This document shows positions 35,566 to 63,247 of a DNA stretch of 64,000 nucleotides, piece by piece. Position 1 is the first letter of the stretch; each line of letters begins with the position of its first letter. Under the pieces are notes generated by a model. The model ran no database searches. It worked only from the letters and a program-made list of their open reading frames with translations, and was not told the origin of the DNA. The stretch is from Flavobacteriales bacterium (GTDB taxonomy: Bacteria; Bacteroidota; Bacteroidia; Flavobacteriales_F; PHOS-HE28): positions 552,001-616,000 of the forward strand of contig JAHBUK010000004.1 of NCBI GenBank assembly GCA_019638115.1. The letters run 5' to 3'. The translations under genes were made by a program, and so were the position numbers.

Positions 35566-36741
35566 ATGAACGCATACATCATCGCAGGTTACCGCAGCGC
35601 CGTTGGACGATCAGGCCGCGGCAAGTTCCGTTTCACCCGCCCCGACGACCTCGCGGCCAGTGTGATCAAACACCTTGTGGCCAGCGTGCCCAACCTGGAC
35701 AAGGAGCGCATCGACGATGTGATCGCCGGCAACGCCACGCCCGAAGCCGAGCAGGGCCTGAACATCGGCCGCATGATCAGCCTGATGGGCCTGGACACCG
35801 ACAAGGTGCCGGGCATGACGGTGAACCGCTACTGCAGCAGCGGCAGCGAGACCATCGCCATCGCCGCGGCCAAGATCCACAGCGGGCAGGCCGACTGCAT
35901 CATCGCGGGTGGCGTGGAGTGCATGAGCCCGATCCCCTTCGGTGGCTGGCGCATCGTGCCCAACGCCAAGGTGGGCAAGGCGAACCCCACGTACTATTGG
36001 GGCATGGGCCTCACCGCCGAGGCCGTGGCGCGCGACTTCAAGGTGAGTCGCGAGGACCAGGACGCCTTTGCGCTGGCCAGCCATGAGAAGGCACTGGCGG
36101 CGATCGCCGAAGGCCGCTTCAAGGACGACATCGTGCCGGTGGAAGTGGAGCGCGTGTACCTCGACGCGAAGGAGAAGCGCCAGGTGGAGAAGTACATCGT
36201 GGACACCGATGAGGGTCCACGCGCAAGCACGCTGGAAGCACTGGCGAAACTGAAGCCCGTGTTCGATGCCCGTGGCACGGTAACGGCCGGCAACGCCAGC
36301 CAGACCAGCGATGGCGCCGCCTTCATGCTGGTGGTGAGCGAGCGCATGCTGAAGGAACTCAACGTGAAGCCCATCGCGCGTCTCCTCTCCTACCACGTGG
36401 CCGGTGTGGAGCCGCGCATCATGGGCATCGGTCCGGTGGCGGCTGTGCCCGCAGCGGTGGAAAAAGCAGGCCTGAAGCTGGGCGACATCCAGCAGTTCGA
36501 GCTGAACGAGGCCTTCGCATCACAGTCGCTGGCAGTGGTGCGCGAGCTGGGCATCGACCCGAGCATCGTGAACGTGAACGGCGGCGCGATCGCGTTGGGG
36601 CATCCGCTGGGCTGCTCCGGCACCAAACTGACCGTGCAGCTGCTGAACGAGATGCGCAGGAGGAAACAGAAGTATGGGGTGGTGACGATGTGTGTGGGGA
36701 CGGGGCAGGGAGCTGCGAGTGTGTTCGAGTTGTTGAACTGA
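35566..36741 (+). CDS. fadA: Acetyl-CoA acyltransferase (thiolase)
   Basis: 391 residues, standard thiolase length. The nucleophile is Cys90 (VNRYCSSGSE), His346 lies in GGAIALGHPLGCSG, and the second active-site Cys376 is in TMCVGTGQGAASVFE. It cleaves 3-ketoacyl-CoA to acetyl-CoA and a shortened acyl-CoA, the last step of beta-oxidation. It is separated from fadN by the accessory block. The last 108 bp (36634-36741) are repeated in diverged form at 37140-37237 (partial) and 37951-38058. Confidence 0.95.
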   Translation: MNAYIIAGYRSAVGRSGRGKFRFTRPDDLAASVIKHLVASVPNLDKERIDDVIAGNATPEAEQGLNIGRMISLMGLDTDKVPGMTVNRYCSSGSETIAIAAAKIHSGQADCIIAGGVECMSPIPFGGWRIVPNAKVGKANPTYYWGMGLTAEAVARDFKVSREDQDAFALASHEKALAAIAEGRFKDDIVPVEVERVYLDAKEKRQVEKYIVDTDEGPRASTLEALAKLKPVFDARGTVTAGNASQTSDGAAFMLVVSERMLKELNVKPIARLLSYHVAGVEPRIMGIGPVAAVPAAVEKAGLKLGDIQQFELNEAFASQSLAVVRELGIDPSIVNVNGGAIALGHPLGCSGTKLTVQLLNEMRRRKQKYGVVTMCVGTGQGAASVFELLN

Positions 36742-37139: not shown

Positions 37140-37237
37140 GAAACAGAAGTACGGTGTTGACGGTCCCGCTGAGGCGGGACAGGTTGTGCGTGGGGACGGG
37201 GCAGGGAGCGGCGAGCGTGTTCGAGTTGTTGAATTGA
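37140..37237 (+). pseudogene. Extra fadA 3'-end copy 1, interrupted
   Basis: Starts at the codon matching fadA GAAACAGAAG (36663 on) and ends at a TGA. Inside it is a replacement of a few bases by an insert containing the hairpin GTCCCGCTGAGGCGGGAC (37163-37180). Outside the insert the differences from fadA are synonymous (for example TAT/TAC, GCT/GCG, AGT/AGC, AAC/AAT). It is far too short to encode a thiolase. The TGA overlaps the ATG of repeat copy B. Confidence 0.8.
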
Positions 37238-37358
37238 TGGCACAGAAACGTGATAGTCATTGGGGTGTGCCCCCTGTTCAAATGCAGCCGGGATCTGGCT
37301 TTCCGCTCTACTCCTGGCTAATACCTCGCTGCGGGGCGCATCTCCGATCCATCACGCG
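37237..37358 (+). repeat. HWGVP repeat element, copy B
   Basis: ATG overlaps the TGA of the fadA tail copy. It reads MAQKRDSHWGVPPVQMQ...GFPL...LRSITR in the same frame as the downstream secreted protein (ATG 37360), without a stop. The nucleotide repeat covers 37256-37358, from GTCATTGGGG to TCACGCG. Confidence 0.7.
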
Positions 37359-37950: not shown

Positions 37951-38058
37951 GTGCAGTTGTTCAACGACATTCGACGGCGGAAGAAGAAGTACGGGGTGGT
38001 AACGATCTGTGTGGGAACTGGGCAGGGAGCGGCGAGCGTGTTCGAGCTGCTAAACTGA
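37951..38058 (+). pseudogene. Extra fadA 3'-end copy 2, full-frame diverged
   Basis: 108 bp, the same length as fadA 36634-36741, with no indels. Comparing codon by codon, 18 of 36 codons differ: 13 synonymous and 5 conservative (L/F, E/D, M/I, Q/K, M/I). It ends in TGA that overlaps the next ATG (TGATG). The pattern shows divergence under selection as part of a working thiolase gene before it came to this place. Confidence 0.85.
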
Positions 38059-38564
38059 TGGCACAGAAACGTGAAAGTCATTGGGGCGTGCCCCTGGCTC
38101 AAATGCAGGCGGGGTCCGGCTTTCCGCTTCAAGTCCGCGCCCTGATCACAGGGCTTGCGGGCTTTTCGCTTCAATCCGTCACGCGAACTCTGCTGATCAC
38201 GTTATCTCTAGTCACGACACCTGCTGGGCACGCATGCAGTTGCATAGGCGCTGCTGGACTCGATGCCGTTGACGTGGTCTTCACCGAACGAGTGGTCCGG
38301 ATCGAGAAGACCGACACAAGCGTTGCTGTCACGTTCAAGGTCAAACACCTCTACAAGGGTGATCTGAGCGGAGAGAAGCGTGTCGTGGTTCATACGCGTC
38401 GTGGAGGTCAGGCTTGCGGCATCAGTTTCATTCGTCACACGAAGTACGCAGTCTATGCGTACGGTGACCTGGATCATGCGAGCACAGGTTTGTGCACGCG
38501 TACTCGCATCATGGCACCATTCAGGCTCTGGCCATATAAACCCAAGGAGAGCACAGGTTGGTGA
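38058..38564 (+). CDS. NTR/TIMP-like secreted protein starting in repeat copy C
   Basis: Up to 168 residues from the ATG at 38058 (MAQKRESHWGVPLAQMQ), which lies in repeat copy C; an internal ATG at 38103 is possible. There is no later in-frame ATG before the hydrophobic segment TLLITLSLVTTPAGHA. The mature part begins CSC and continues DVVFTERVVRIEKT, VTFKVKHLYKGDL, CGISFIRHTKYAVYAYG and TGLCTRTR, which is the netrin-like (NTR/TIMP) pattern of small secreted domains with Cys-rich N-termini. The target is unknown. The gene seems to depend on the repeat for its start codon. Confidence 0.6.
   Translation: MAQKRESHWGVPLAQMQAGSGFPLQVRALITGLAGFSLQSVTRTLLITLSLVTTPAGHACSCIGAAGLDAVDVVFTERVVRIEKTDTSVAVTFKVKHLYKGDLSGEKRVVVHTRRGGQACGISFIRHTKYAVYAYGDLDHASTGLCTRTRIMAPFRLWPYKPKESTGW
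38077..38185 (+). repeat. HWGVP repeat element, copy C
   Basis: From GTCATTGGGGCGTGCCCC to TCACGCG, very like copy B at both ends and sharing with it the preceding TGATGGCACAGAAACGTGA. It reads HWGVPLAQMQAGSGFPLQ...LQSVTR and runs in frame into the NTR-like protein. Confidence 0.7.
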
Positions 38565-44513: not shown

Positions 44514-45692
44514 ATGCGGATCCTGGCTGTACTTCTCCTGCTCGTTCATCATGCGATCGCTGCGCAGTCCTGGGTGCAGTTGCCCGACTTCCCCGGCATG
44601 GCCCGCGATGATGCCGCCAGCTTCCATTGGAACGACAAGATCTTCGTGGGCACCGGCATGGACGTGGGGTTTCAGCTTACCAACGACTGGTACGCCTATT
44701 CCATGACCACCGAAAGCTGGGAAGCCGTGGCATCGTTACCCGCGAGTGGCAGGCAGTATTGCAACGGCTTTCGGTTGAGTGACGAACGTGGTTACCTGTT
44801 CGGCGGAGTGGATGCGAATGGACCCTTGAACGAGCTGTGGCGCTATGATCCGATCACGGATGCCTGGACCCAACTCGCTTCCCTACCTGCCGCCGGGCGA
44901 TACGCTTGTGCGGTGATCGTGGCCTACGACCAAGTGTTCATCTGTGGCGGTCTGCTCGATGGAGGGATCCCCACCACAGAGGTATGGCGCTATGATACCA
45001 ACAGCGATTCATGGGAGCCCCGCTCTCCCATGCCCGGCACACCAAGACACCGTGCAGCCGTGGTGGACAACCTGGTGGTAGGCGGTGCGGACAGCAGCTT
45101 TCAGGCCTTGAGCGAGGCTTATGCATACAACCACTTGAACGACCAGTGGACGGAAAGGCCAGGACTTCCTGCCCCGCGTTTCGGCGCCGCAAGCGTGGAC
45201 CATCTGCACTTCTGTGGCGCCAGCTCACTGGCCCAGAACCATGATGAGGTGCTGGTGTACGACTGGTTGACCGGTGACTTCAACGCGTCCATCATCCCCC
45301 CATTCCCGGGAGGCCCACGGAAGGGCGGAATTGCGCAAACACAGCACTACATCGCGGACGTTGGCATTTTCTTTTTCGGACTGGGCATCGATGGGCCAAC
45401 ACGCTTTAACGACTGGTGGCGAATGGACTACGGCACTGGCATAGGGGAGCATGCCATCCCCCCCACCAAGGTCTTTCCCAATCCCGCCAGCACCCAACTC
45501 CAAGCGGAATGGCCAATGCATTGGACGGTGGCCCGCTACGATGTGTTGGATGCCACCGGCCGTTCGCTTCGTACCGGTGTCCTCGCCGAAGCAACGCCCT
45601 TGGATATCACGGACCTCGGCGCAGGCCGTTACGAGGTCCATTTCTCCAACGGCGATGAACGCCTCCGCGCCCCCTTCATCAAACTCCCCTGA
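44514..45692 (+). CDS. Kelch-repeat protein with T9SS sorting domain
   Basis: 392 residues: signal peptide (MRILAVLLLLVHHAIAAQ), then five or so Kelch units (WVQLPDFPGMARDDAA, YLFGGVDANGPLNELWRYDP, WTQLASLPAAGRYACA, FICGGLLDGGIPTTEVWRYD, WEPRSPMPGTPRHRAAVV), forming a beta-propeller. The C-terminus VFPNPASTQLQ...YDVLDATGRSL...YEVHFSNGDERLRAPFIKL is a T9SS type A sorting domain, so the protein is secreted through T9SS and surface-attached or released. Binding partner unknown. The stop overlaps the next ATG (TGATG). Confidence 0.88.
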   Translation: MRILAVLLLLVHHAIAAQSWVQLPDFPGMARDDAASFHWNDKIFVGTGMDVGFQLTNDWYAYSMTTESWEAVASLPASGRQYCNGFRLSDERGYLFGGVDANGPLNELWRYDPITDAWTQLASLPAAGRYACAVIVAYDQVFICGGLLDGGIPTTEVWRYDTNSDSWEPRSPMPGTPRHRAAVVDNLVVGGADSSFQALSEAYAYNHLNDQWTERPGLPAPRFGAASVDHLHFCGASSLAQNHDEVLVYDWLTGDFNASIIPPFPGGPRKGGIAQTQHYIADVGIFFFGLGIDGPTRFNDWWRMDYGTGIGEHAIPPTKVFPNPASTQLQAEWPMHWTVARYDVLDATGRSLRTGVLAEATPLDITDLGAGRYEVHFSNGDERLRAPFIKLP

Positions 45693-46330
45693 TGCAATTC
45701 CTCGATCCTGCATTGGAGCAGTACGCGGCCCTGTGTTCCGAAGCTGAGCCTGCGCACCTGCGTGCTTTGGCGGAAGAGACCCGCACGGCCAGCACCCAGC
45801 CCCAAATGCTCAGCGGTCACCTGCAGGGCCGTTTCCTGAGCCTCATGAGCAGGCTGCTGCACCCCACGTGCATCCTGGACATCGGCACCTTCACCGGTTA
45901 CAGTGCCCTGTGCATGGCGGAGGGGCTTGCGCCGGGCGGGCTGCTGCACACCATTGATGTGGACACGCGGCATGCCTCCCTGGTGGACCGCTACGTGCGC
46001 CAAGCCGGCATGCACCAGCGCATACACCAGCACCTGGCGCCCGCTGTGGACGTTATCCCGCGCATCGCAGGCACCTTCGACCTGGTGTTCATCGATGCCG
46101 ACAAGCAGAACTACTGCAACTACTTCGATCGGGTGATCGAGCGCGTCCGTCCGGGTGGGCTCATCATTGCCGACAATGTGCTTTGGAGCGGCAAGGTGCT
46201 GGACGCTTCCGTGGACGATGCGGAAACACGCGGGCTGGTGGCCTATGCACGGAAAGTGCAGCAGGACACCCGCGTTACCAACCTGCTGCTTCCGCTGCGC
46301 GATGGCCTGTTGGTGAGCCGCAGAACATGA
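45692..46330 (+). CDS. SAM-dependent O-methyltransferase
   Basis: 212 residues of the caffeoyl-CoA/catechol O-methyltransferase family. SAM-binding motif I is ILDIGTFTGYSAL, followed by LHTIDVDTRHASLV and the metal-binding FDLVFIDADKQNYCNYFD, then GGLIIADNVLWSGKVLD. These enzymes methylate catechol-like hydroxyls with a divalent metal; the substrate is unknown. Translationally coupled to the Kelch gene by TGATG. Confidence 0.88.
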   Translation: MQFLDPALEQYAALCSEAEPAHLRALAEETRTASTQPQMLSGHLQGRFLSLMSRLLHPTCILDIGTFTGYSALCMAEGLAPGGLLHTIDVDTRHASLVDRYVRQAGMHQRIHQHLAPAVDVIPRIAGTFDLVFIDADKQNYCNYFDRVIERVRPGGLIIADNVLWSGKVLDASVDDAETRGLVAYARKVQQDTRVTNLLLPLRDGLLVSRRT

Positions 46331-46377
46331 CGGTGCTCAGGGTACTAACTTGGTACTCCTCCCAACTTCAACCCATC

Positions 46378-46764
46378 ATGGAAGCACAACTGTTCTACAA
46401 GGAATTGGGGCGCCTGCTGTATGCCATAGCAGCGGCCGATGGCAAGGTGAGCGACAAGGAAGTGGCCACGCTGAAACGCATCGTTTCGCAGGAATTGGTA
46501 CCCCAGGAAGCGAGCACCGATCACTTCGGCACCGACCAGGCCTACATCACGGAGTTCGAGTTCGAGGTGCTGGCCGAGCGCAATGCGTCGGTGGAAGGCG
46601 CCTTCGACTCGTTCATCGCGTACATGGCCCGACACAAGAAGGACCTGGACCCCGAGCGCAAGGACCTGATCTACCGCGCGGCCGATGCCGTGGCCAGTGC
46701 CTTCCACGGGGTGAACAAGGCCGAACTGCCCCTGCTGGTGGAACTGCACCGGCACCTGCACTGA
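46378..46764 (+). CDS. TerB-like protein
   Basis: 128 residues from the ATG at 46378. The start EAQLFYKELGRLLYAIAAADGKVSDKEVATLKRIV is the TerB-like helical pattern with an acidic DGKVSDKE loop that can bind metal. The second half has TEFEFEVLAERNAS and LIYRAADAVASAFHGVNKAELPLL. TerB-family proteins are linked to tellurite resistance and stress, but small single-domain forms are mostly uncharacterised. Confidence 0.65.
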   Translation: MEAQLFYKELGRLLYAIAAADGKVSDKEVATLKRIVSQELVPQEASTDHFGTDQAYITEFEFEVLAERNASVEGAFDSFIAYMARHKKDLDPERKDLIYRAADAVASAFHGVNKAELPLLVELHRHLH

Positions 46765-46787
46765 GCAGGAGCGAAGCGTCACCGCGC

Positions 46788-46795
46788 TATCTTGG
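46788..46795 (+). promoter_or_regulatory. -7-like element of ltaE
   Basis: TATCTTGG, 20 bp before the ATG at 46816. Confidence 0.3.
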
Positions 46796-46815
46796 GCCTC
46801 CGCTCCGGAAGGCCC

Positions 46816-47841
46816 ATGCAGCCCATCGACCTGCGCTCCGATACCGTTACCCGCCCCACACCCGCCATGCGCGATGCCATGCTGCGGGCCGCTGTGGGCG
46901 ACGATGTGTTCGGTGAGGACCCCACGGTGAACGCCTTGGAGGAGCGCCTGGCCGCCCAGTTCGGGCATGAGGCCGGCCTGTTCTGCCCAAGCGGCACCAT
47001 GACCAACCAGATCGCGGTGCACATCCACACGCGGCCCGGCGACGAGGTGATCCTTGACGAAGGCGGCCACATCTACCGCTACGAAGGCGGAGGTGTGATG
47101 GCCACCAGCGGTTGTTCCGTGAAGCTCATCCAAGGCGATCGCGGCCGCTTCACGGCGGAGCAGGTGAAGGAGAACATCAACGACCCGGCGCTGTGGCTGG
47201 CCCGCACGCGCATGGTGTACATGGAGAACACCACCAACCGCGGCGGTGGCGCCGTGTGGGACCTGGCGGAGGTGGATCGCATCTGCGCGGTGTGCGACGC
47301 GCACAAGCTCGCCTTCCACCTGGACGGGGCACGCATCTTCAACGCGCTGGTGGCCACGGGTGGCGATGCGCGGGAATGGGGATCGCGCTTCCACAGCGTA
47401 TCCATCTGCCTCAGCAAAGGACTGGGCGCTCCGGTGGGCTCCGTGCTGGTGGGCAGCAAGCCCCTGATCCACGAGGCGCGTCGTGTGCGCAAACGACTGG
47501 GCGGCGGCATGCGGCAAGTGGGCATACTGGCAGCGGCCTGCCACCATGCCCTGGACCACCACGTGGAGCGCCTCGCCGAAGACCACGATCGCGCCAAGCG
47601 ATTGGAAACCGCCTTGCTGCAACTGCCCTATGTGGCCTCCGTGCTTCCGGTGCGCACGAACATCGTGAGCATCACCTTGGTCGATACCTTGACGGCGGAA
47701 CACTTCGTGCGCTCCATCCGCGAAGCCGGTCTGTTGGCGGCCGCCTTCGGGCCACGGCAGGTGCGCATGGTGCTGCACCTCGATATTGCCGATAACGCCT
47801 TGGCCAAAGTCATCCGGATACTGAACGAACTTCGACCATGA
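46816..47841 (+). CDS. ltaE: Low-specificity L-threonine aldolase
   Basis: 341 residues from the ATG at 46816. PLP enzyme of fold type [19 protein letters not shown] at the start, [16 protein letters not shown], and the Schiff-base Lys in [25 protein letters not shown] carries the Asp that contacts the PLP nitrogen. It splits threonine or allo-threonine into glycine and acetaldehyde. The stop overlaps the next ATG by ATGA. Confidence 0.94.
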
Positions 47842-48221
47842 AAGCACTCCTCGCGCCCCTACTTCTTCTAACACTGGCAGCCTGCTCCGGCCCGCAGTAC
47901 CTGTACAAGGGTGAGCAGGATGGCGTGGAACTCGCCTATCGCTGGAACCATCCGAAGGACAAGCCCAGCGAACTGTTGCTGCGCATGAAGAACACGACAC
48001 CCGGTGACAAGCGCATTGCCTTGGCGATCGACCTGTACTACCAGGGCCGCACCGTGGAGACCCTGGAAGCCGACACCTGCATCCGGAACGGTCAGGCGCT
48101 TACCGGCAAGCTCAACGGCATCTATTTCATCCCCGAACGCATTACCACCGAACAGATCAAGAACGGCGGTGTGCAAGTGGAGATGACCAACACCCGGATC
48201 GAGGCCCAGCCCTGCCGATGA
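47838..48221 (+). CDS. Small lipoprotein, conserved hypothetical
   Basis: 127 residues. Signal peptide with lipobox LAAC at Cys16; then a short beta-sandwich-like domain ([48 protein letters not shown]) with paired Cys near CIRNG and the C-terminal CR. Coupled to both neighbours: ATGA overlaps with ltaE and with the kinase. No known function. Confidence 0.65.
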
Positions 48222-49936
48222 GCCAGAACCAACGGACCGGTCGCTGGCTCTTCTACAGCACCGTTGCGGTACTTGTGTTGGCACTGGGTTTCGTAACCTG
48301 GTCGAGCATGCTGGTGCGCAAGCGGCAGCAGATCTTGGCGGAAGTGGCTTTGGAACGCGTGCAGTCCATCTTCCGGGTACGCCTCGATGCCTTGTTCCAC
48401 AAGATCACCGAGGACCTGAACGAGGAGGTTGAGGCCTTGCGCGAAGAGCCCGGATCCGAAGCGCTCGACCTGCTTCCGCGCTGGCGCCCTTTCCTGCGTT
48501 CGCACCCCACCATCACACGGATACAAGTGGCGGACGAGTTCGGTGTGCTGCGATCGGTGGAACGGTTGACCGACACCACCCTTGTGGTTTACACGGCAGG
48601 GCCGAACGATGCGCTCTACCATGCCCAGGTGATCCCGTTGCTGGGTAAGCTCACCACTACCACCGAACTGCCCGAAGTGGCCTATGAAGACCCCCGTGCA
48701 CAGGTCTGGTATGGGCGCGCGCTCGAAGAGCCATACTACGAGGCCGTGTGGTACCTGGGCGGTGGCAAGGATGTGCAACGCTCCTACATGCAGGTCTCCA
48801 AGCTGCTGCGCGGGGCCTCTGCGAAGGATCCATTCCGGATCCTGATGTTCGAGGTGGACCTGGCACGATCGTCCATACTGAGCCTGCGCTCCGCACCCAC
48901 CGACCGCTACAGCGCGGCACTGATCGATGCGAACGGGCGCATGCTGAGCGCCACCGAGCTTGTGCGTGACACCACCATGGCGCAAGCGGAACGCGATGCT
49001 GCCGCGCTGTGGGTGGAACTGCGGAAGCGCAGCCCCTACAACCTCTCGATCGGGGACAAGAACTTCCATGCTTTGGTGAGGCCCTACATGGTGAACGGAC
49101 AAACCCTGTACACCGCATCCGTCATGGACGAAGGAGCGCTTCAGGTGTGGACGAAGATGGAGCGCATGGTGCTGATGGCCATGGTGCTGCTGGTGGCCCT
49201 GATGGTGATCCTGCTGGGATGGATGTGGCTGCGCAACCGCATGGAAGATGCGCGGATCCGCCGCCAGATGCGCTTCAGCAAAGCGCAGGAGCAACAACTT
49301 GCCAAAGCCATCGGCGAGCGTGATGTGCTGAGCCGCGAGGTCCACCACCGGGTGAAGAACAACCTGCAGATCGTGAGCAGCCTGCTGAACCTGCAAGCCT
49401 CACAGTTGGATGAAGATCATGTGCGCCACGAGTTCCTGCGGGGCAAACAACGCATCGATACCATCGCGCTGGTACACCACAAGCTGTACGGTTTGAAAGA
49501 CCTGCGCGACGTGGACCTGAAGCTCTTCTTCGATGGGCTGATCGAAGCGCTGGCCACCATGCACTACAAGGACAAGCGCACCGTAAGCTATGCCGTACGC
49601 ACCGCCAACCTTTCCGTTGACCAGGACTCGGCGATAACGCTTGGCATCCTGTTCTGCGAGTTGGTGAACAACAGCTTCCAGCACGCCTTTCCGTATGCCA
49701 CCGGCGGCCATGTGGATGTTGCCGTGCAACCGGTGGATGGCGGGCTGTACCGCATGCTGGTGAAGGACAATGGCAAGGGTTTGTCCGATGGTTTCGCCGA
49801 TGGCCCGGGCAAGCTTGGCCTTGATATCGTTGCAGCACTGGCGGAACAACTGGATGGTTCGTTCCACACGCACACCAATGGCGGCACCACCTGCGAGGTG
49901 CTGTTCCGCATAAGCGGCAGGCGCATCCTAACGTAA
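48218..49936 (+). CDS. Membrane sensor histidine kinase (HisKA_2)
   Basis: 572 residues. Helix 1 (about 10-30) and helix 2 (about 310-330, MVLMAMVLLVALMVILLGWMWL) bracket a periplasmic sensor of about 280 residues. The H-box VLSREVHHRVKNNLQIVSSLLNLQ, with phosphoacceptor His376 or His377, is the HisKA_2 type. The ATPase domain has ELVNNSFQHAFPY (N-box), VKDNGKGL (G1) and GKLGLDIV (G2). It probably phosphorylates a response regulator not present here. The ATG overlaps the lipoprotein stop, hinting that the lipoprotein might be a sensor partner. Its 3' end overlaps the convergent tolC-like gene by 9 bp. Confidence 0.9.
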   Translation: MSQNQRTGRWLFYSTVAVLVLALGFVTWSSMLVRKRQQILAEVALERVQSIFRVRLDALFHKITEDLNEEVEALREEPGSEALDLLPRWRPFLRSHPTITRIQVADEFGVLRSVERLTDTTLVVYTAGPNDALYHAQVIPLLGKLTTTTELPEVAYEDPRAQVWYGRALEEPYYEAVWYLGGGKDVQRSYMQVSKLLRGASAKDPFRILMFEVDLARSSILSLRSAPTDRYSAALIDANGRMLSATELVRDTTMAQAERDAAALWVELRKRSPYNLSIGDKNFHALVRPYMVNGQTLYTASVMDEGALQVWTKMERMVLMAMVLLVALMVILLGWMWLRNRMEDARIRRQMRFSKAQEQQLAKAIGERDVLSREVHHRVKNNLQIVSSLLNLQASQLDEDHVRHEFLRGKQRIDTIALVHHKLYGLKDLRDVDLKLFFDGLIEALATMHYKDKRTVSYAVRTANLSVDQDSAITLGILFCELVNNSFQHAFPYATGGHVDVAVQPVDGGLYRMLVKDNGKGLSDGFADGPGKLGLDIVAALAEQLDGSFHTHTNGGTTCEVLFRISGRRILT

Positions 49937-54200: not shown

Positions 54201-54398
54201 CAGCACCACGCCTTCCTCCACCTCCTCCGGCGCGGCACCGGGGAAGATGATCTGTACCTGCACCTGGCGGCTCTCCACCTCGGGGAAGAAGCTGCTGCGC
54301 GTGCTCTTCAGGCCGAAGTAGCCGAAGATCAGGATGAGCACCATGAGGGTGTCCACCGTGACCGGGTAGCGGATGAACCAGGCTACAACGCCCTTCAT
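51246..54398 (-). CDS. RND efflux pump inner-membrane subunit
   Basis: 1050 residues, full length for AcrB/MdtB-like HAE1 transporters. N-terminal helix WFIRYPVTVDTLMVLILIFGYFGL; periplasmic pore domain with PGAAPEEVEEGVVLRIEND; transmembrane helix 4 has the proton-relay Asp region FGMILVIGILVDDGIVIAE, and a second half repeat ends VSLRGHDLAQL, GFGLIALIGVMVNDSLVLL. It exports drugs or lipophilic compounds with the adaptor and TolC. The start overlaps the adaptor stop by 4 bp. Confidence 0.93.
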   Translation of the reverse strand: MKGVVAWFIRYPVTVDTLMVLILIFGYFGLKSTRSSFFPEVESRQVQVQIIFPGAAPEEVEEGVVLRIENDIKGITGIERISSVSQENGGVITVDALKGYDADVLLQDVKNAVDRIPQLPEGMEPIRTFKLENLQPAFTFAITGKDVDLAVLKQAARRVEQDLRAIDGISKVAISGYPEEEIEVAFREESLRAYGLSFAQAAARVRAANLELTGGKVKTSDEELLIRVRDRSNMAEGLRNIPLVAAADGRIVRLGDVADVRDTWADDPARSYVNGQPAVVVNVSSTVSEDILGMADKTRAYMEEFNARNSALEAVLIVDSTTILRQRIDMLTTNGLQGFFLVIILLALFLNLRLAFWVALSIPVAFAGMFILAPGIITINVMSLFGMILVIGILVDDGIVIAESIYQEYEKGMPPVQAAMVGTQKVLTAVISAVLTTVAAFSTFFFIEGRLGEFAPALAFVVIATLLFSLLEGGLILPAHIAHSKGLHRGGKNKLEATMDGLMNKLRDKLYAPFLDWALNNRMLTIGMGFFFLALTIGSIGAGTIKTTFFPVIERDDVQVELELVAGTREHVVSSELDRIETIVWDINRELSAGRSDSLDVVLKVQRILGPRPEQGRLTIILLDGETRNMRAEEVTNRLRERVGSIPGATNLSYGIRSPFGKPISVSLRGHDLAQLNAAKEQLRNELERLPVLRDVIDSDKPGDREVVLQLKQKAYMLGLTTGDVMQQVRQGFFGQEVQRVQRGEDEIKIWVRLGEEGRASLRDLEDMRIRTPDGRAIPLSELATYHIERGIRAINHLDGQREVRIEADMANAKLSSTDAQQTIRDEVLPPILAKYPGIRYSFEGQGEQSRKVGESSRRVLPITLLIMFAIMVFALRSFWQMLLIVLGIPFAIIGVGWGHWIHGVQISLFSGFGLIALIGVMVNDSLVLLTTFNGNLKEGMPFDRALREAARSRLRPILLTTLTTVAGLMPLIFNRSFQAQFLIPMAITVAYGLMLATFVTLVVLPTMLTVLNQARRGAFWLWNARPATAEELEPAIKELPYEQLEETEH

Positions 54399-55537
54399 GG
54401 CCGTTCGGTATTAGCGCTGATCACAGGAGCCACGCGCATGCCTTCATAGGCCCCGCTGAGCCGGTCCAGAACCACCACCTGGCCGTCCTTCAAGCCACGC
54501 ACGATCGCCTGCTCCACGCCCTGGTGCAGCACCTCCACCGGCGCGCGGCGCAAGGCGGAATCCTGTACGGTGTAAAGGCTTCGGTCCTCCAACAGCGCAC
54601 TGCGGGGCACGGCCACTGCGGCATCCAGCACAGCGGACTTGATGCTGCCGCTCATGTACATGCCATCGCGCAGGCCTTCACCCTGCACCTGCACGAAGAT
54701 CTTCACGGTCTGTGTAGCCGGGTCGATCTGTTCGGAAAGACGGATGACACGTCCGCTCCACGCTCCCGGCCCTTCGGTACTCGACAGCCGCAGCGTATCG
54801 CCCACGCGCACCAGGTGCAGTTCACTGGCGGCGATGGCCGTTTCCAGTTCCAGCGACCCCGGCGCGATGAACTCGCCCAGGCGCGTGCCCGGAGTAACGA
54901 TGGTGCCCGGCTCGGCAAAGGCCGCCACCACCACCCCATCGAAGGGCGCGGTGATCACGTACTTGGCGAGGCGCTCGTAGAGGGCGCGGATGCCGTAGTA
55001 CTGGTCCAGTACGCCGCGGCCGGCGAGGTAGTTCCGCTCCTGCTCGTTGTCCATGGTGGGCAGCGCGGGCAGTAGGCCATCCACCGGCACGCTCTTCAGG
55101 TAGTTCTCCCACTTGGCGGCCACGGCGGGCAGGTCGTACTTCAGGTCGGGCACCAGTTGCACCAGCGTGCGCAGGAAGGCGCTCTGCTGGGCGTTCACCT
55201 GGGCGCGCACCTCACCATCGTCGATGCGCAGCAGCACCTCGCCCTTGCGGAAGGTGAAGCCCTCGCGGAAGATCTTTCCGTTGCTGCGCAGGATGCCGCC
55301 CACCTCGGCGTTGATCAGCATGCGGTCCGTGGCGCGCAGGCGGCCGGTCACCGGGATGCCGATGCGCACCGCTCCGTTGGAGGCCGTGAGCGTACGCACG
55401 GCCTGCGCTTCCACCGCATCGGGCATGCGCTCTGGGGACTTGCGACTGGCGGAGAGCTTGTTGCAGGTGACCACGCCGCCCACGATCAGTAGGAGGCCCA
55501 GCACCACGGTGATCCTGCGCTTGATCAGGTCGTTCAT
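54395..55537 (-). CDS. RND periplasmic adaptor (membrane fusion protein)
   Basis: 380 residues with an N-terminal membrane anchor (ITVVLGLLLIVGGVVTC, possibly a lipoprotein). Lipoyl half-motifs are INAEVGGILRSNGKIFREGFTFRKGEVLLRID and VITAPFDGVVVAAFAEPGTIVTPGTRLGEF, separated by a helical hairpin; a beta-barrel segment LPRSALLEDRSLYTVQ follows. It links the RND pump to TolC. Coupled on both sides by 4-bp overlaps. Confidence 0.9.
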   Translation of the reverse strand: MNDLIKRRITVVLGLLLIVGGVVTCNKLSASRKSPERMPDAVEAQAVRTLTASNGAVRIGIPVTGRLRATDRMLINAEVGGILRSNGKIFREGFTFRKGEVLLRIDDGEVRAQVNAQQSAFLRTLVQLVPDLKYDLPAVAAKWENYLKSVPVDGLLPALPTMDNEQERNYLAGRGVLDQYYGIRALYERLAKYVITAPFDGVVVAAFAEPGTIVTPGTRLGEFIAPGSLELETAIAASELHLVRVGDTLRLSSTEGPGAWSGRVIRLSEQIDPATQTVKIFVQVQGEGLRDGMYMSGSIKSAVLDAAVAVPRSALLEDRSLYTVQDSALRRAPVEVLHQGVEQAIVRGLKDGQVVVLDRLSGAYEGMRVAPVISANTERP

Positions 55538-56135
55538 TGTTGAATGGATCGGATGATGAGTTCAGCGGCAAGGCTGCTGCGCTCTTGTAGGAATCGTTCG
55601 AAGGCTTTCTGGTCCATGCCGCCCAAATGCCTCACCACTGGACTGGCCACATGAGGGAACCAGCACCAGGCCATCATGTTCACCATCAGCTGGAGCGGCT
55701 CGATCGCGATGATCTCCCCACGTTGTTGGGCGGCTTTCACCTGCTTGAAGAACTGTTCGCGCGCGCCCTTGCCCAGGTCCACCAGCTTCAGCAGGTGCTG
55801 GGGATCGCGCTGCAGTTCGTTGAGCATGAAGTGCGGGAAATGCGGCTCGCGCACCATGGCTTCGTGGAAGGCCGCTACGAACGCACGGATGTTGTCGAAC
55901 AGCGGACGCTCCTGCGTGAGTTCCACCCACATGCCCTGCATGGCCCGTTGCCCGCACACGCAGAACACCTGCTCGAAGAGCTGCTGCTTGTTTCGGAAGT
56001 AGTAGTGGAGCAGGGCCTTGTTGATGCGGCCTCATCGGCCACTTCCTGCATGCGCGTACCCACCATGCCCTTGCGCAGGAACACGCTGCGGGCGGCGTCC
56101 AGGATGCGTTCCTCGGTGGAAATTTCCGTGGCCAT
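55534..56135 (-). pseudogene. TetR-family regulator, single-base frameshift
   Basis: The ATG at 56135 starts TEISTEERILDAARSVFLRKGMVGTRMQEVADEA, a TetR HTH. In the expected sequence this continues INKALLHYYFRNKQQLFEQVF, but that reading needs one extra base: the DNA on the minus strand reads GAGGCCGCATCAAC where GAGGCCGGCATCAAC is expected (about 56025-56036). Downstream, the frame to 55534 encodes an intact TetR ligand domain (VCGQRAMQGMWVELTQ...). It is either a recent inactivation or a sequencing error in a G/C-rich spot. A loss of repressor would leave the efflux operon constitutive. Confidence 0.85.
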
Positions 56136-56155
56136 TAGGGAGCGGGGCTGCAAGT

Positions 56156-56171: not shown

Positions 56172-56376
56172 TGTGGTGGGGGTTGAAGGGGTTGGGGGTT
56201 GAAGGGGGTTGAGGGTTGTCGGGGGTTGAGGGTTGACAACGCTTGGGGGTTGGTGAGGTTGGGGGTTGGTGAGGTTGCGGGTTGGTGAGGTTGCGGGTTG
56301 CACAGACCTTGAAGGCACTGTCAACCTACAACCCACGACCTACTTCTGCGAAGCAGTCCTTCAACCCCCAACCGGC
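56171..56376. repeat. G-rich GGGTTG repeat tract with inverted end
   Basis: About 120 bp of GGGGTTGA and GGTTGGTGAGGTTG units on the plus strand, then C-rich complements. GGTTGGGGGTTGAAGG (56190-56205) recurs inverted as CCTTCAACCCCCAACC (56358-56373). The tract is rich in G3-G5 runs, so quadruplex formation is possible. No gene in 56136-56590. Confidence 0.7.
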
Positions 56377-56392
56377 CATAAGCACAAGTGAA

Positions 56393-56449
56393 CTACCTCA
56401 ACCACTCCACCTCCACCCTCCTTTCGTCGGGGTTGCGGCCCATGCTGCG
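56393..56449 (+). repeat. 57-bp copy of the ompA-like gene 3' end
   Basis: Identical over 57 bp to 61925-61981, which is the last 19 codons (with stop) of the minus-strand ompA-like gene. Both copies have the same orientation, so they flank 56450-61924, with the subtilase and propeller genes, as direct repeats. Confidence 0.9.
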
Positions 56450-56541
56450 CATCTATGATTTCGAGAGCCAATAGAGGCAGTTCCGCTAATTCACTGATCC
56501 CCGGCGGATCTCAAGGCTGTATATTCCAGATGGAATTTCGT

Positions 56542-56572
56542 TTGGAAAAATTGCTTTGGCCCTTACCTTCAA
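56542..56572 (+). promoter_or_regulatory. Promoter of the subtilase gene
   Basis: TTTG (56542-56545), 19-bp spacer, TACCTTCA (56565-56572): a good Bacteroidota -33/-7 pair, 18 bp before the ATG. Confidence 0.6.
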
Positions 56573-56590
56573 CACTCCAAACCCAGACCA

Positions 56591-59500
56591 ATGAGCACTC
56601 AGGCACGCAGGCACGCAGGTAGGAGTCGGTTCCACCAGTTTATTCCTCTGGACAGCCCAACAGGACAACTTCATGCTTTCCTGTGTGCAGCTCTTCTTCT
56701 TCTGAGCCCAATGCTGGCGGCTCAGAATTACATCAATAAGAAATGGGTGCAGAGCACCGGACAGCCAGACAACCTGAATTGGACAGCAAGCACATTGGAT
56801 GTATACCACGATTTGATAGTTGTTGGAAATACCCAAACTGCCCCTGGCGTTTCCGCGGTGTTGGTGACGAAATACGATGCCTTAGGCGATGAGCTTTGGC
56901 AACGCACTTATTCTGGCACTGCCGGAGCCAACAACCATGGAGTGGCGGTCGTCACCAATGCTAGCGGCGAAGTCTTCGTAGCTGCCACGCTAAGCAATTC
57001 CGGCACGGACCTGGACCTTGCCGTGCTGAAGTACGATCTGGGCGGCACACTGGCTTGGGTCGCACAATGGAACGGCCCCTCGAATCTCGCCGATGTTCCA
57101 GCTGCTTTGGCCTTGGATAGCGCAGGTAACATCTTTATCTGTGGTGCTTCCTTCACGGATCCCATCTACGCCGACTTTGCGCTTGTGAAAATAAGTCCGG
57201 CCGGCACCGTGCTTTGGTCGAAGACCTATGACCATGCCGGCCTGCTGGATGCGGCCGTGGCTGTCGAAATAGACCCCGATGGTCATGCCGTGGTATTAGG
57301 GATATCCGCACCCAACAACATGTCGTGGGACATTGCTGCGTTGCGTTATGATGGCGCAAATGGCGACGGGCTGGATACCATTCGTGTGGAACAACCTGCA
57401 TGGGGACTGCAGGATGCCAAGGCCATGCATATGGATGAGGCTGGGAACATCTATGTAACCGGTTCTTTCCAAAACGGCACGGACAAGAACGTGCAAACCC
57501 TGAAACTCGGTGCTGGCTTTGGAATGGCCTGGCTGGTGGACCATGACGAGGCCGGTTTCGATGACGAAGGCCTGGCGCTTGCCGTGGATGATTCCGGCTA
57601 TGTGTATGTCTGTGGCGCTGCTGGCAACGGTAACGGCGGTACTGATTTCCTGACCCTGAAGTACGACCCCGAAGGCGAACTCGTTTGGAAACGCATCTTC
57701 GCACCAAAGGGTGGACCATGGCCTTGCAAAGCGAGCAAATTAGCCATCTCCGGAGGCCAGATCGTGGTCACCGGAACGGTGAACAACGACAGCAAGATGA
57801 ATTTTGCCACGGTGGTGTATGAACCCGATGGCACCTTGGGTTGGTCGGTACTGCACCATCAAGGCTATGGTGATGACCAGGCCTTGATGCTGGCCACCAA
57901 GACCTTCGGGGTCGTCTACGTGAGCGGCATCAGCGAAACGCCCAATGGACCGGTATACACCACCGTGAAGTATGACGTGTTCCACAAAGAGAACGAGGCC
58001 GTGACCGATACCTCAGGCCACCCCCTGTACCTCGATCAGGAAGTGATGGTGAAATTCCGCCACCACCTGCTGGACACCAGTATTGTGGACAACAAGGACT
58101 GGCAGCACGGAACCTTGGCCGAATTGGTTCCGGACAGTGTCGCTGCAGCCATGGAGATAAAACTTGGTCTCGCACAAGGCATGGCCAGCCGGATCAAGGT
58201 AGTGAAGGTGTTCCGGCGTTGGACCCGCGCGGACAGCATCTCCATCAGTCGCTTGGGGGAGGAAGTAAGGCTTCCAAAATTCTGGAGTGTGTTCGTTCTC
58301 GATGGGGTTGGCATGGACCCGAGAGTGGCAAGTGATAGCTTGAGTTCGCTATGGGAATATGTCGCATATGCACACCCAAATTTCACCTACAAATTCTTCT
58401 CAAATGATCCTGTGTACGCAGAAGGTTGGCAAAGCAATCTTTCGCCGACAACCAGTTTTTCGGATGCGCATATCAACGTTGATGGTGCCTGGGCGATCCA
58501 AACCGGTCAACCCTTCATTAAGGTAGGCATAGTAGACACACCAGTAGACTGGGGCCATGAGGATTTTACATTCTTGGGTTCTACGAAGATCCGCAGTGGA
58601 AGTGACTACCGGATACCATTTGGGAACTTTGACCCGACACTATCCCCGTATCCATACGGTAGTACCGGATATCATGGGACAGCGTGTGCGAGTATCCTGG
58701 GATCACTGCGGAATAACGAATTAGGAGTATCTGGTATTGCTGGCGGCGACGTATCAACATCCAATTCAGGGACGTCTGTAATCCCATTGATTGTTGGCAC
58801 TTACTGGAATAACTTCCTATCACTGGAACAAGCTGCCCCTGCCATCGTCGAGGGTTCATCAGACATAAGCACAGGTAATGGTTTCGGATGCCACGTTCTG
58901 AATGTCAGCTGGGGCTCCACAGGTTCATCCGGTCAACAAGATTATCCTTTGGCATTGGTCAATGCTGTCCTCACTGCGAATAGGAACGGATGTTCGATCT
59001 CCGCTGCGCATGGCAACTACGGCACAGGAACGGTCAACAACCCTTTCCCTCTAGCAAACTTCCGAACATACCCTTCGGCTTTAGCCGAGCACCCGGACAA
59101 TGAATCCGGGCTTGTTGGTGACCAAGTCATACTAAGTATCGGTGCAACTGGATCGGACGGCACATATTTATACTATTTCTCGAACAACACAGATGAATAT
59201 CAGATAAACTCTTGCTTTGGCTTTGGACTTGACCTGGTTGCACCGGGCAGTAGTGACGTAGTTTTTTCCGCCCTAAGCGGTGAGGGTCCGCCGTTGAATT
59301 GTACCGACCTGCCTTGGGAAGTTTTTGGATTTCCATCCCCCCTGTACTCGTGTTTTCAAGGCACATCATCGGCAGCTCCACATGTGGCAGGGGTGGCTGC
59401 CCTGATGCATGCTGAGCATAGTGTAATTAATGGGGCACCGAACGGTTTAGCTCCAGAAGACATAGAGCATGTCTTACAGCTAAGTGCCAAGGACATTTTC

Positions 59501-60328
59501 GACTTGGACACACAGTCGCCACCCTATGAGGACTACAGCATTGGTTACGACAACTACCACGGGCACGGGCGTTTGGATGCTTCTGCGGCGCTGACGCTTG
59601 TAAGTACCCCACATTGTGTAGTCCACTCCGGAGAATCCGACGCGACCGCCTACCAACAATTCCCCGCTGAGACTATAACCATTCCTGAAAGAAATCTTCT
59701 CCAACTCCCTGCTGGGGAATACAATGCCTATCGCGTAGAGGTCACGCATACCTATGTTGACGAGTTTCCCATGGATGCTGAAATTATCTCGCCGAATGGG
59801 GCTTGGGGTCGAGAAAGTTCCACATTTGGCACCCACGGTCTTGCTACCACAGTGAATAATCGCACATGGGCGACCTACGATTTCACGATCATCGGTAACG
59901 TCGCAAATGTCATCGCAACCACGAACACGTGGTACGTTCAAACAAGGACAGACAACAGCTTGACGGTGAATGCGTGGTACCCGGCACCTCCAACTGAACT
60001 GAGAACCGCTTATTCCTTATTGGTTGTCAATGGGGACTGCTGGGGACCCAGCACAGTTCATGTCGATGAGGCTGAGGCATTGAACCCATTGGTCGTATAT
60101 CCCAATCCTGCATACGACCTCCTTCACGTTGTGACGAATGATCTTGCCGGAGGTACTTGGTCTGTGGATATCGTTGATCCACTAGGTCGGATCATCAGCT
60201 CACACGCTGTCAACGGATCATCCCTACGCACCTTCCAACTACCGATCGGTTCTCTGGCCAGAGGCACCTATTTCCTCCGCTTGTCCGGTTCTGGAAGATC
60301 ATTGTCGACCCGTTTCATCAAACAGTAA
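56591..60328 (+). CDS. Propeller-subtilase fusion with T9SS sorting domain
   Basis: 1245 residues. A signal peptide with a long basic N-region ends SPMLAAQ (about residue 45). Residues 50-480 are a beta-propeller of SBBP-like units (AVLVTKYDALGDELWQRTYSG, DLAVLKYDLGGTLAWVAQW and others). The S8 subtilisin domain follows, with triad Asp (GIVDTPVDWGHED, about 649), His (YHGTACASI, about 696) and Ser (GTSSAAPHVAG, about 925). A proprotein convertase-like P-domain region (YRVEVTHTYVDEFPMDAEIISPNG) precedes the T9SS sorting domain VVYPNPAYDLLHV...STRFIKQ. It is an exported protease. The early codons contain a GGCACGCA tandem repeat. Followed 6 bp later by a second propeller gene. Confidence 0.9.
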   Translation: MSTQARRHAGRSRFHQFIPLDSPTGQLHAFLCAALLLLSPMLAAQNYINKKWVQSTGQPDNLNWTASTLDVYHDLIVVGNTQTAPGVSAVLVTKYDALGDELWQRTYSGTAGANNHGVAVVTNASGEVFVAATLSNSGTDLDLAVLKYDLGGTLAWVAQWNGPSNLADVPAALALDSAGNIFICGASFTDPIYADFALVKISPAGTVLWSKTYDHAGLLDAAVAVEIDPDGHAVVLGISAPNNMSWDIAALRYDGANGDGLDTIRVEQPAWGLQDAKAMHMDEAGNIYVTGSFQNGTDKNVQTLKLGAGFGMAWLVDHDEAGFDDEGLALAVDDSGYVYVCGAAGNGNGGTDFLTLKYDPEGELVWKRIFAPKGGPWPCKASKLAISGGQIVVTGTVNNDSKMNFATVVYEPDGTLGWSVLHHQGYGDDQALMLATKTFGVVYVSGISETPNGPVYTTVKYDVFHKENEAVTDTSGHPLYLDQEVMVKFRHHLLDTSIVDNKDWQHGTLAELVPDSVAAAMEIKLGLAQGMASRIKVVKVFRRWTRADSISISRLGEEVRLPKFWSVFVLDGVGMDPRVASDSLSSLWEYVAYAHPNFTYKFFSNDPVYAEGWQSNLSPTTSFSDAHINVDGAWAIQTGQPFIKVGIVDTPVDWGHEDFTFLGSTKIRSGSDYRIPFGNFDPTLSPYPYGSTGYHGTACASILGSLRNNELGVSGIAGGDVSTSNSGTSVIPLIVGTYWNNFLSLEQAAPAIVEGSSDISTGNGFGCHVLNVSWGSTGSSGQQDYPLALVNAVLTANRNGCSISAAHGNYGTGTVNNPFPLANFRTYPSALAEHPDNESGLVGDQVILSIGATGSDGTYLYYFSNNTDEYQINSCFGFGLDLVAPGSSDVVFSALSGEGPPLNCTDLPWEVFGFPSPLYSCFQGTSSAAPHVAGVAALMHAEHSVINGAPNGLAPEDIEHVLQLSAKDIFDLDTQSPPYEDYSIGYDNYHGHGRLDASAALTLVSTPHCVVHSGESDATAYQQFPAETITIPERNLLQLPAGEYNAYRVEVTHTYVDEFPMDAEIISPNGAWGRESSTFGTHGLATTVNNRTWATYDFTIIGNVANVIATTNTWYVQTRTDNSLTVNAWYPAPPTELRTAYSLLVVNGDCWGPSTVHVDEAEALNPLVVYPNPAYDLLHVVTNDLAGGTWSVDIVDPLGRIISSHAVNGSSLRTFQLPIGSLARGTYFLRLSGSGRSLSTRFIKQ

Positions 60329-60334
60329 ACTGCG

Positions 60335-61915
60335 ATGAAAAACCTGACCCTTGCATGCTCACTCATATGCTTCCTTTCAATTAAAGCTCAGGATGCTCCG
60401 ACCATTCAGTGGCAACGCAACTTGGGAGGAAGCGCAAGTGATGCAGCATATTCCGTTGCAACAACTTTCGACGGTGGTTACATTGTTGCTGGTCGCACGG
60501 ACTCCAATGATGGTGACGTATCGGGAGCACACGGCCAGCGCGATATCTGGGTGGTCAAACTCAGGGCGGACGGCACCTTGGAGTGGCAACGTTGTTATGG
60601 TGGATCCTGGGCAGAAGAATACATAGCAGTGATCCATGTTACCGCCGATAACAGGTACATACTTGCAGGTACTACGTCATCATTTGATGGAGACATTGAT
60701 TGTTCGGATCCACAAGCACCTCGGTGCTGGGTTGCACAACTCGATCCTTTCGGCGAGATCGAATGGCAGCGGTGTTTGGGAGGGAGTGACTTGGATTTCG
60801 TTGATGCCATCGCAGAAGACCAAGATGGATATATGGTTTGTGGCACTACAACATCTACGGATGGTATTGGAAACGGCAATAATGGCAGCCAAGATCTTTT
60901 CGTATCAAAACTCGATCTGGAAGGCAATATTCAATGGAGTAAGTGTTTTGGTGGAAGCGGAACTGATATCGCCAGGAGTATTACGAAGTTGTCCGACGGA
61001 ACCTTCGTAATAACAGGGCAAACACGATCGAACGACGGGGACTTGACCGATGTCAATCCCTACTTTGTAAGTCCACTTACCAGCACCGTTGGTTGGATCT
61101 TCAAGATCAACAGTCTTGGTGATCTTATTTGGCAACGCTGTATCGGAGGTTATGGGAATGATTTCACGCATTTCTCGCAAGAGTCTCCTGACGGAACGGT
61201 CTGGATAGTGGGATCCACCCGATCCAACGATGGTGATGTAGAAGGGAATCAAGGTGAGGAAGATGCTTGGATAGCAGAATTATCAGCGGACGGCCAATTG
61301 CTGAGAAATCGATGTTTTGGCGGTGCAGGATCAGATCGATTCCGCTCACTCCAAATCTTGCCACAAGGGAGTATGATAGTCGCAGGCTACACCAATTCAC
61401 AGACCGGGGATGTAACCGACCCGATAGGAAGCACGGATGTATGGCTTGTTCATTTGTCCACGGACATGGAAATTTTGTGGCAGGGTTCATATGGTGGCAC
61501 ATCAATGGACATCAGTGAGAGTATGATCCAGTCACCTGATGGTGGCGTAGTACTCGTTGGCGAAAGCAACTCCATTGATGGGGATCTCACCAACAACAAC
61601 GGTATGTCAGATGTCTGGGTAGTGAAGCTCGCTCCTTGGGATGACACGCACGTATCTGCGGTCTATGGCCGCTCTCTTTTGCAGGTATACCCCAACCCGG
61701 CCAACGACCTGCTCACGCTTAGAGTCGATGAATTGATCGGCACTGACTGGGAATTGACCATAAAGGATGCGACCGGACGTACGGTATATGTCGGTCCTTG
61801 GACCACTCAGCGGGTACATACATTCTCTGTGTTGCAGTGGGAAGCGGGTTTGTATAGTGTGCTACTGCGCAGGGGTGATGTTCTCCATACGCGGCGCTTC
61901 GTGATCGCGCGCTGA
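60335..61915 (+). CDS. T9SS-secreted propeller-repeat protein
   Basis: 526 residues: signal peptide (MKNLTLACSLICFLSIKAQ), then about eight repeats of the type WQR(N/C)xGGSxxDxAxS...GGYIVAGRTxSNDGDVSG...DxWVVKLxxDGxL, giving a propeller with Asp-rich SNDGD loops that may bind calcium. The C-terminus LQVYPNPANDLLTLRV...RRFVIAR is a T9SS type A sorting domain. No catalytic residues are evident. It probably forms an operon with the subtilase. Lower G/C than the flanking genes. Confidence 0.85.
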   Translation: MKNLTLACSLICFLSIKAQDAPTIQWQRNLGGSASDAAYSVATTFDGGYIVAGRTDSNDGDVSGAHGQRDIWVVKLRADGTLEWQRCYGGSWAEEYIAVIHVTADNRYILAGTTSSFDGDIDCSDPQAPRCWVAQLDPFGEIEWQRCLGGSDLDFVDAIAEDQDGYMVCGTTTSTDGIGNGNNGSQDLFVSKLDLEGNIQWSKCFGGSGTDIARSITKLSDGTFVITGQTRSNDGDLTDVNPYFVSPLTSTVGWIFKINSLGDLIWQRCIGGYGNDFTHFSQESPDGTVWIVGSTRSNDGDVEGNQGEEDAWIAELSADGQLLRNRCFGGAGSDRFRSLQILPQGSMIVAGYTNSQTGDVTDPIGSTDVWLVHLSTDMEILWQGSYGGTSMDISESMIQSPDGGVVLVGESNSIDGDLTNNNGMSDVWVVKLAPWDDTHVSAVYGRSLLQVYPNPANDLLTLRVDELIGTDWELTIKDATGRTVYVGPWTTQRVHTFSVLQWEAGLYSVLLRRGDVLHTRRFVIAR

Positions 61916-61924
61916 CCTTGCCCC

Positions 61925-63247
61925 CTACCTCAACCACTCCACCTCCACCCTCCTTTCGTCGGGGTTGCGGCCCATGCTGCGGCTGTCGCCGTAGTGGTTC
62001 ACCAGCAGGCGTTCGGCGGCGATGCCGCGTTGCATGAGGTAGTTGCGCACGGCGGTGGCGCGCTGCTCGCTGAGGCGCAGGTTCACGGTGGGGTCGCCGC
62101 TGCGATCGGTGTAGCCGGTAATGAGCACACGCTCCTGTGGCGACCGGGCCAGTTGCTCAAAGACCTCGTTCAGCAGCACGCGGTACTCGGCATCGAGGCT
62201 CACGGAGTTGCGGGCGAAACGCACGGTGATGTTGCGGCCCACCAGGGTGCTGAGGTTGGCGGACGGGTTGTCGGTGGGCATACTCGCCTGTGAGCGCACC
62301 TCGCGCACTTCCAGCTCCAGGCCGGTGATGCGGTCGTCCATATCGTCCAGGCGGTCGCGCAGGTTCCACAGTTCCTTGCGCTGGTCCAACTGGTCGATCC
62401 GTTCGTTGATGCGGTCCAGTTCCTCCTTCAACCAGCGGTCGCGTTTGCGCACCTTCAGGTCGCTGGCGGCAGCGATGGGCTTGCCCTGTTCCGCCATGGA
62501 CTTCAACAGGCGTTCGCCCAGCACGGGGTCCACGCCGCCGTTGCCACTATCGGCAAGTTGCAGGTCCAGCGCACAGAGGAAGTTGTCCTCGTCGAACACG
62601 GTGCCGCAGGTGCTGTTGATCTGCACCTGCGTGCCGATGGGGCCGATCTTCGGACCGATCACCACCACGTTGGCCAGCGGCAGCAGGTCGGCGCGCACCT
62701 GGCGTTCCAGTTCATCACGTTGGATGCGCACGTAACGGTAGAGTGCGAGGTACTTGTCCTGTCCGGCACCGTCGATACCGGTTCGGGTGGCGCCCCATTG
62801 GATCTTCACCAGGCGCTCCAATTGCTCACGCGTGGCGGGCGACAGACCCACGAAGGCATCGGGCACGCCCAGGTCGTCGGCGGCGGCCAGCACCAAGGCG
62901 TTCATTTCCTGGACCAGGCTGCTCACCGGCAGGTCGCTGGCCACTCCTTCCTTGGTGAAGCGCAGATGGCCGTCGAGGTAGGCGATGAGCCCGGCCTCCA
63001 CCACGCGGTCCAGCATCAGGCGCAAGCCATTGTCGGGTTCCCCGGCCTGCTGCACCTGGAACACAGCAAGACCTTGTGGTACACCGCGCCAGATGGCCTG
63101 GAAGACCTGCACCGGCGCTTCGCCGTCCGTGCGCATGCCGTGCAGCACGATGTTGTTGCCTTCCCACGCGGCGCCGAGTTCCAAGCGCGGCTGCGCCTGG
63201 GCGGCATGGAGCAGCGCGGCAGCGGCGGCCACCAGCAACGAGCGCAT
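61925..63247 (-). CDS. OmpA-family protein with coiled coil
   Basis: 440 residues from the ATG at 63247 with a signal peptide (MRSLLVAAAAALLHAAQAQ). The middle has a periplasmic helical part with a coiled coil (LKEELDRINERIDQLDQRKELWNLRDRLDDMDDRI). The C-terminal OmpA domain carries ITVRFARNSVSLDAEYRVLL, ITGYTDRSGDPTVNLRLSEQRATAVRNYL and ERRVEVEWLR. It should tie the outer membrane to peptidoglycan. Its last 57 bp are duplicated at 56393-56449. Confidence 0.85.
   Translation of the reverse strand: MRSLLVAAAAALLHAAQAQPRLELGAAWEGNNIVLHGMRTDGEAPVQVFQAIWRGVPQGLAVFQVQQAGEPDNGLRLMLDRVVEAGLIAYLDGHLRFTKEGVASDLPVSSLVQEMNALVLAAADDLGVPDAFVGLSPATREQLERLVKIQWGATRTGIDGAGQDKYLALYRYVRIQRDELERQVRADLLPLANVVVIGPKIGPIGTQVQINSTCGTVFDEDNFLCALDLQLADSGNGGVDPVLGERLLKSMAEQGKPIAAASDLKVRKRDRWLKEELDRINERIDQLDQRKELWNLRDRLDDMDDRITGLELEVREVRSQASMPTDNPSANLSTLVGRNITVRFARNSVSLDAEYRVLLNEVFEQLARSPQERVLITGYTDRSGDPTVNLRLSEQRATAVRNYLMQRGIAAERLLVNHYGDSRSMGRNPDERRVEVEWLR

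Follow-up and report, generated by a model that had tools for sequence, protein, structure and literature searches.

A 57-bp copy of an ompA-like gene tail beside a T9SS protease module in a Flavobacteriales genome: a probable one-sided homologous insertion

Integrative elements with attachment sites in gene 3' ends leave a copy of the gene tail at each side of their insert. In the orphan-immunity arrays of the Vibrio cholerae T6SS, where the 3' end of the effector gene has been shifted back, homology-facilitated illegitimate recombination (HFIR) has been proposed (Kirchberger et al. 2017, PMC5361080). Orphaned Rhs/CDI 3' regions, as far as they are described by citation in that paper, consist of strings of displaced 3' gene ends. 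HFIR itself, as described in transformable bacteria, combines homology at one end with an illegitimate joint at the other (PMC3240628, PMC5361080). In this work, we analyzed a repeated gene tail beside an ompA-like gene in a window of 64,000 nucleotides (positions 552001-616000 of the 628-kb contig C4) from G000, a 4.06-Mb genome assembled in nine contigs.

The tail repeat and its cargo

The last 57 bp of ompA recur in direct orientation beside tetR (57/57 matches), and the match extends 0 bases beyond either edge; the left edge of the copy within the gene is the final base of the TAG stop codon, on the minus strand. An identical direct repeat with its edge at the ompA stop codon, as given in the preliminary description, was thus borne out. 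Only these two copies are found in the 4.06-Mb genome when up to three mismatches are allowed, and since the pair is the sole non-paralogous exact direct repeat of such length and spacing on the whole contig, it is not attributable to chance. The ompA product carries an OmpA domain (E 1.8e-18, Pfam) and has orthologues genus-wide at 40-64% identity; joining the flanks in silico with a single repeat copy leaves the gene intact.

The cargo was likewise described correctly as exactly the propeller-subtilase and propeller T9SS genes, a short promoter region being the only other content of the approximately 5.5 kb between the tails (Table 1). The subtilase D, H and S motifs lie near residues 645, 694 and 924, and the propeller gene is convergent with ompA, 9 bp separating the two stops. 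About 140 bp lead from the left tail to the first gene: 62 unique bp followed by 79 bp of leader shared with a paralogous module, to which homology begins at 56512. At 56449/56450 the loose tail meets DNA that has no relation to ompA and no second copy in the genome, and we read this left end of the module as an illegitimate joint, judging from the sequence. Terminal inverted repeats, short target duplications and transposase genes, the marks of an IS or transposon, were not found at the edges of the insert or inside it. A plasmid search with the subtilase gave weak domain matches only. A 32-nt stretch of acrB that matches the subtilase gene in inverted orientation proved to be same-sense coding similarity (DLAVLK) and was taken as chance.

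Table 1. Features around the insert, by window position
Feature	Position	Strand	Basis or remark
hlyD, marks the tetR flank of the insertion site	54395..55537	-	Pfam and locus comparison
tetR-type regulator of the hlyD-acrB-tolC efflux operon	55534..56136	-	apparent frameshift
Intergenic DNA from loose tail to tetR	56178..56392		GGTTG-rich repeats
Loose 57-bp ompA tail (T2)	56393..56449	-	identical to 61925-61981; adjoins tetR like ompA in empty-site relatives
Unique 62-bp stretch, loose tail to module leader	56450..56511		without other match in the genome
Leader/promoter region common to module copy 2	56512..56590	+	3 differences in 79 bp
SBBP propeller-subtilase (S8), predicted T9SS export, 1245 aa	56591..60328	+	Pfam: SBBP propeller, Peptidase_S8, Por_Secre_tail
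T9SS propeller-repeat companion protein, 526 aa	60335..61915	+	Por_Secre_tail (Pfam)
57-bp tail (T1) within intact ompA, ends at stop codon	61925..61981	-	identical to T2
ompA-like gene, intact, 470 aa	61925..63337	-	PF00691

The insertion site and the module in related DNA

Empty sites do exist in relatives: in six genomes of the same genus, none of them of the same species (G010, G016, G019, G030, G058 and G062), tetR and hlyD come immediately after ompA and the module is absent, the distance from ompA to the hlyD start being 678-777 bp where measured. From these genomes, which are more distant than the sister genome G025 with its module at this place, we infer that the immediate ancestor of G000 had an empty site here. 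The most plausible reading of the loose tail T2 is that it represents the former 3' end of ompA, stranded beside tetR, because it adjoins tetR in the same place and orientation as the ancestral ompA; the module and the second tail are then the insert. We also read the DNA at 56178-56392 as the native ompA-tetR spacer, the relatives being too distant for a letter-by-letter match. GGTTG-rich short repeats with a 16-bp period occupy 56176-56300 of the window, and contig C2 has similar stretches at three positions. The tetR frameshift follows ...RMQEVADEA and may be either a real mutation or a sequencing error; the orthologue is intact in relatives (L095).

Five further relatives (G017, G008, G034, G011 and G014) carry other cargo at the site, namely a sensor-like gene, a threonine aldolase, a methyltransferase and a kelch/propeller gene; the counterpart of this whole set lies beyond tolC in our window (44514-49936). 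Across 13 other ompA loci in the genus, whether they carry an insert or not, no repeat of the ompA tail was found. The 3' side of ompA is thus a spot that tolerates varied cargo, and the tail repeat there is particular to G000, since the other loci hold different cargo or none and lack the repeat. An apparent second ompA-tail duplication, at contig ends of G030, turned out to be two strain variants at 96.6% identity.

In G025, a related module lies 2 bp from the ompA stop; it has no tail repeat and lacks the first 369 residues of the subtilase. The propeller tree groups its propeller gene with the G000 gene at a second site, beside hpt (98/97), and not with the G000 gene at ompA, so the two ompA-site modules are not simple orthologues; the subtilase tree did not separate the branching of G025 and the two G000 copies. 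Independent arrival, or exchange, of modules at the ompA site is likely. G025 also contains a 99.9% identical copy of its ompA-site module elsewhere (L088 5415-11453), a recent ectopic duplication; in this duplicate an apparent IS1595-type transposase gene interrupts the propeller gene, and the end of the block falls within the T9SS C-terminal domain. A divergent XRE-type regulator precedes the subtilase-propeller module in four other genomes (G018, G020, G032 and G013; loci L103, L110, L111 and L112) and is absent from G000 and G025.

The second module of G000 (C4:620168-625586; L086 4169-9586) is situated in the hpt-adk-obg cluster, between hpt and adk, 11.7 kb from the first; 10 bp separate its last stop from that of a convergent gene, and no hpt-tail repeat was found there. 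The two copies are 95% identical over the 79-bp leader and subtilase codons 1-584 (56512-58350 in the first copy) and past codon 584 they fall sharply to about 65% DNA identity (about 70% at the protein level), and the sharpness of this drop indicates that the 5' block was exchanged between modules. Within the exchanged block 74 of 584 third positions differ (12.7%), compared with 0/57 positions in the tails. Had the tails been as old as the exchange, about 4.8 differences between T1 and T2 would be expected and none was seen (P ~0.01; both figures are estimates from third-position divergence that assume no gene conversion). The insertion responsible for the repeat therefore appears younger than the hybrid module, which supports the recent event that the preliminary description had proposed on seeing identical copies.

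Gene-tail copies elsewhere

For each of 877 genes we compared the head, the middle and the last 150 bp with the 15 kb on either side, over 1.43 Mb (35% of G000, comprising contig C4 and 800 kb of C2, with genes called by a home-made hexamer model). Loose copies of the 3' end outside full-length homologues were found for 11 genes, all 11 being direct and downstream (0.25^11 = 2.4e-7). Judged by sequence, fadA, ompA, ettA, sucC and ffh are among them; the occurrence beside cargo that had been pointed out for fadA and ompA extends to at least ten genes besides ompA, fadA included. The copied tails belong to unrelated genes, measure from about 36 to 300 bp and share no sequence between genes; the ten other than ompA diverge by 2-20%, and 6 of 9 measured cases in the repeat scan end at most 3 bp from the stop codon. 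Two further cases were seen by eye, at a LuxR-type regulator near 323.3 kb of C4 and a wbqC-like gene near 220 kb.

When 400 kb each of G025, G010 and Escherichia coli K-12 were scanned in this way, the yield was 2, 1 and 1 cases, respectively, and the excess in G000 over E. coli K-12 (11/877 genes versus 1/~280) is not significant (p 0.31). Given the E. coli case, the tail footprint is not special to the G000 genome. The sole tail repeat in those 400 kb of E. coli is at NC_000913:357591-357674, where the last 84 bp of cynR are repeated just downstream (95%). The bias of tails over heads is only suggestive: 11 genes against 7 in the raw counts (p 0.48), and 11 against 2 (p 0.02) after short tandem repeats at gene starts had been removed by hand. 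Hairpins were not consistently stronger behind loose than behind intact tails (Wilcoxon p 0.64), a clear hairpin solely behind the loose tail being present for sucC, ffh and one more gene; with so mixed a result, this test cannot separate old from new tails.

Several of these loci deserve description in their own right. The fadA tail (36689-36741, 37185-37307 and 38008-38128 in the window) recurs twice downstream of the gene, the copies being separated by small ORFs, and the two loose tails also share a downstream element of about 66 bp (GGGGYGTGCCCC...GGCTTTCCGCT). At C4:317635-323546 (L133-L134), an array of small lipoprotein-like ORFs is interspersed with repeats of 180-500 bp containing the 3' end of the LuxR-type regulator; the intact copy of this gene has its end near 323.2 kb. 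At C2:279182-282693 (L165-L166), the spacer between sucC and a convergent gene is seemingly present twice with different content, in the order sucC tail, X1, convergent-gene tail, sucC tail, X2, convergent gene, and the loose tails abut at 280600/280601; this seems to be the product expected of two spacer alleles joined in tandem. A possible mirror of the tail repeats is a 150-bp repeat upstream of a gene (96%) at C4:17753-17903 and 19073-19221 (L118), flush with the start codon.

Origin of the insert and comparison with known systems

Taken together, these results support a cargo bounded by a partial copy of a host gene's 3' end, as first described, and we consider it probable that a one-sided homologous event, either HFIR or of the Campbell type, placed a 5.5-kb segment between ompA and tetR. 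The incoming segment would have comprised the 62 bp, the promoter, the subtilase and propeller genes and a copy of the ompA tail, by which the donor DNA would have paired with the resident ompA, while illegitimate joining would have attached its far end to the resident gene at a point 57 bp short of the stop codon. The outcome would be the order seen here, ompA body and tail, module, stranded old tail and tetR, with the ompA tail on both sides and the intact gene adjoining the cargo. Loose tails that lie direct and downstream, as they do for the 11 genes of the scan, are the pattern to be expected from insertions of this type. Entry, perhaps by transformation, might have been as a linear fragment (HFIR) or as a circle (Campbell-type). 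As the tails are identical, the donor was probably of the same species. The edge at the stop codon needs no special mechanism, because donor and recipient are homologous only as far as the gene extends, unrelated DNA lying beyond it. It counts against homologous insertion that 57 bp is short for RecA. Both comEC and dprA are present in G000, as they also are in non-competent bacteria and in E. coli.

The same final order could have arisen in other ways. A module already resident at ompA, as in G025, might later have undergone repair of its 5' side with template switching, in which 57 bp of ompA, 62 bp of unplaced origin and the leader with 584 codons of module copy 2 were copied; the sharp 95% block and the position of the tail copy only 62 bp from its edge fit such a patch. 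It would, however, require that the copied 57 bp ended at the stop codon and came to adjoin tetR in the ancestral orientation by chance, the block appears older than the tail copy by the third-position estimate, and the same topology is seen at the tails of the ten other genes, where no such block is present, so we regard this course as unlikely. Still less probable is a tandem duplication of the module with the ompA tail and subsequent deletion of the first module up to its tail: it yields the same order, and the ectopic copy in G025 shows that duplications occur, but it takes two events and a deletion ending exactly at the stop codon by chance.

An assembly artefact might be suspected; the four flanks, however, are all different, the copies lie 5.5 kb apart within a 628-kb contig of a nine-contig assembly, and the divergence of the ten other tail copies marks them as no artefacts, which makes this explanation highly improbable. 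Direct repeats at gene 3' ends are also typical of att sites, and the ompA tail could in principle be the attachment site of a site-specific integrative element. The ORFs of the insert are the subtilase and propeller genes only, with no integrase among them, the locus holds different cargo in five relatives and the module of G025 without a tail repeat, and the repeats behind other genes have no common sequence; we therefore rejected this reading, which is barely credible. That the tails belong to unrelated genes and differ in length also argues that no site-specific enzyme recognizes them. Nor did the repeat prove specific to a mobile protease module, as the preliminary description had implied: no recombinase is present, and neither the G025 module nor the copy at hpt-adk has a tail repeat. 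The insertion scar beside ompA is real and recent, belongs to a known class of recombination and is mechanistically ordinary.

It is a bolder and improbable speculation that gene tails serve throughout the genus as general landing and exchange sites, tail-tail excision freeing circles of cargo and tail that would re-enter any cell at the tail of the same gene through RecA, so that cargo would accumulate in arrays downstream of housekeeping genes, as in an integron that lacks an integrase. Seen at ten further genes as well, gene-tail repeats offer a simple means to count and date gene gains that lack mobile elements and to tell the old side of an insertion from the new. The ompA case is unusually clean, its tails being identical, its ancestral gene order known and its cargo defined, and it shows movement and recombination of secreted (T9SS) proteases in uncultured Flavobacteriales.

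Among the described systems, integrative elements share with this locus the gene tail on both sides of the insert; here, however, there is no integrase and no conserved core, and the length and sequence of the tail vary by gene. As in the orphaned Rhs/CDI 3' regions, 3' gene ends are displaced, although those systems, so far as the citation describes them, swap a toxin C-terminus, whereas at ompA the C-terminus stays identical and the change is confined to the DNA downstream. The arrays of the V. cholerae T6SS are alike in that cargo is placed behind a conserved gene through one-sided homology and the old 3' end is moved downstream; there, the displaced end is that of an effector and the cargo is an effector-immunity pair, whereas here a whole household ompA-like gene is followed by a secreted protease module. 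With HFIR, finally, the locus shares homology at one end and an illegitimate joint at the other; that process is known from experiments in other phyla, whereas here its product alone is seen.
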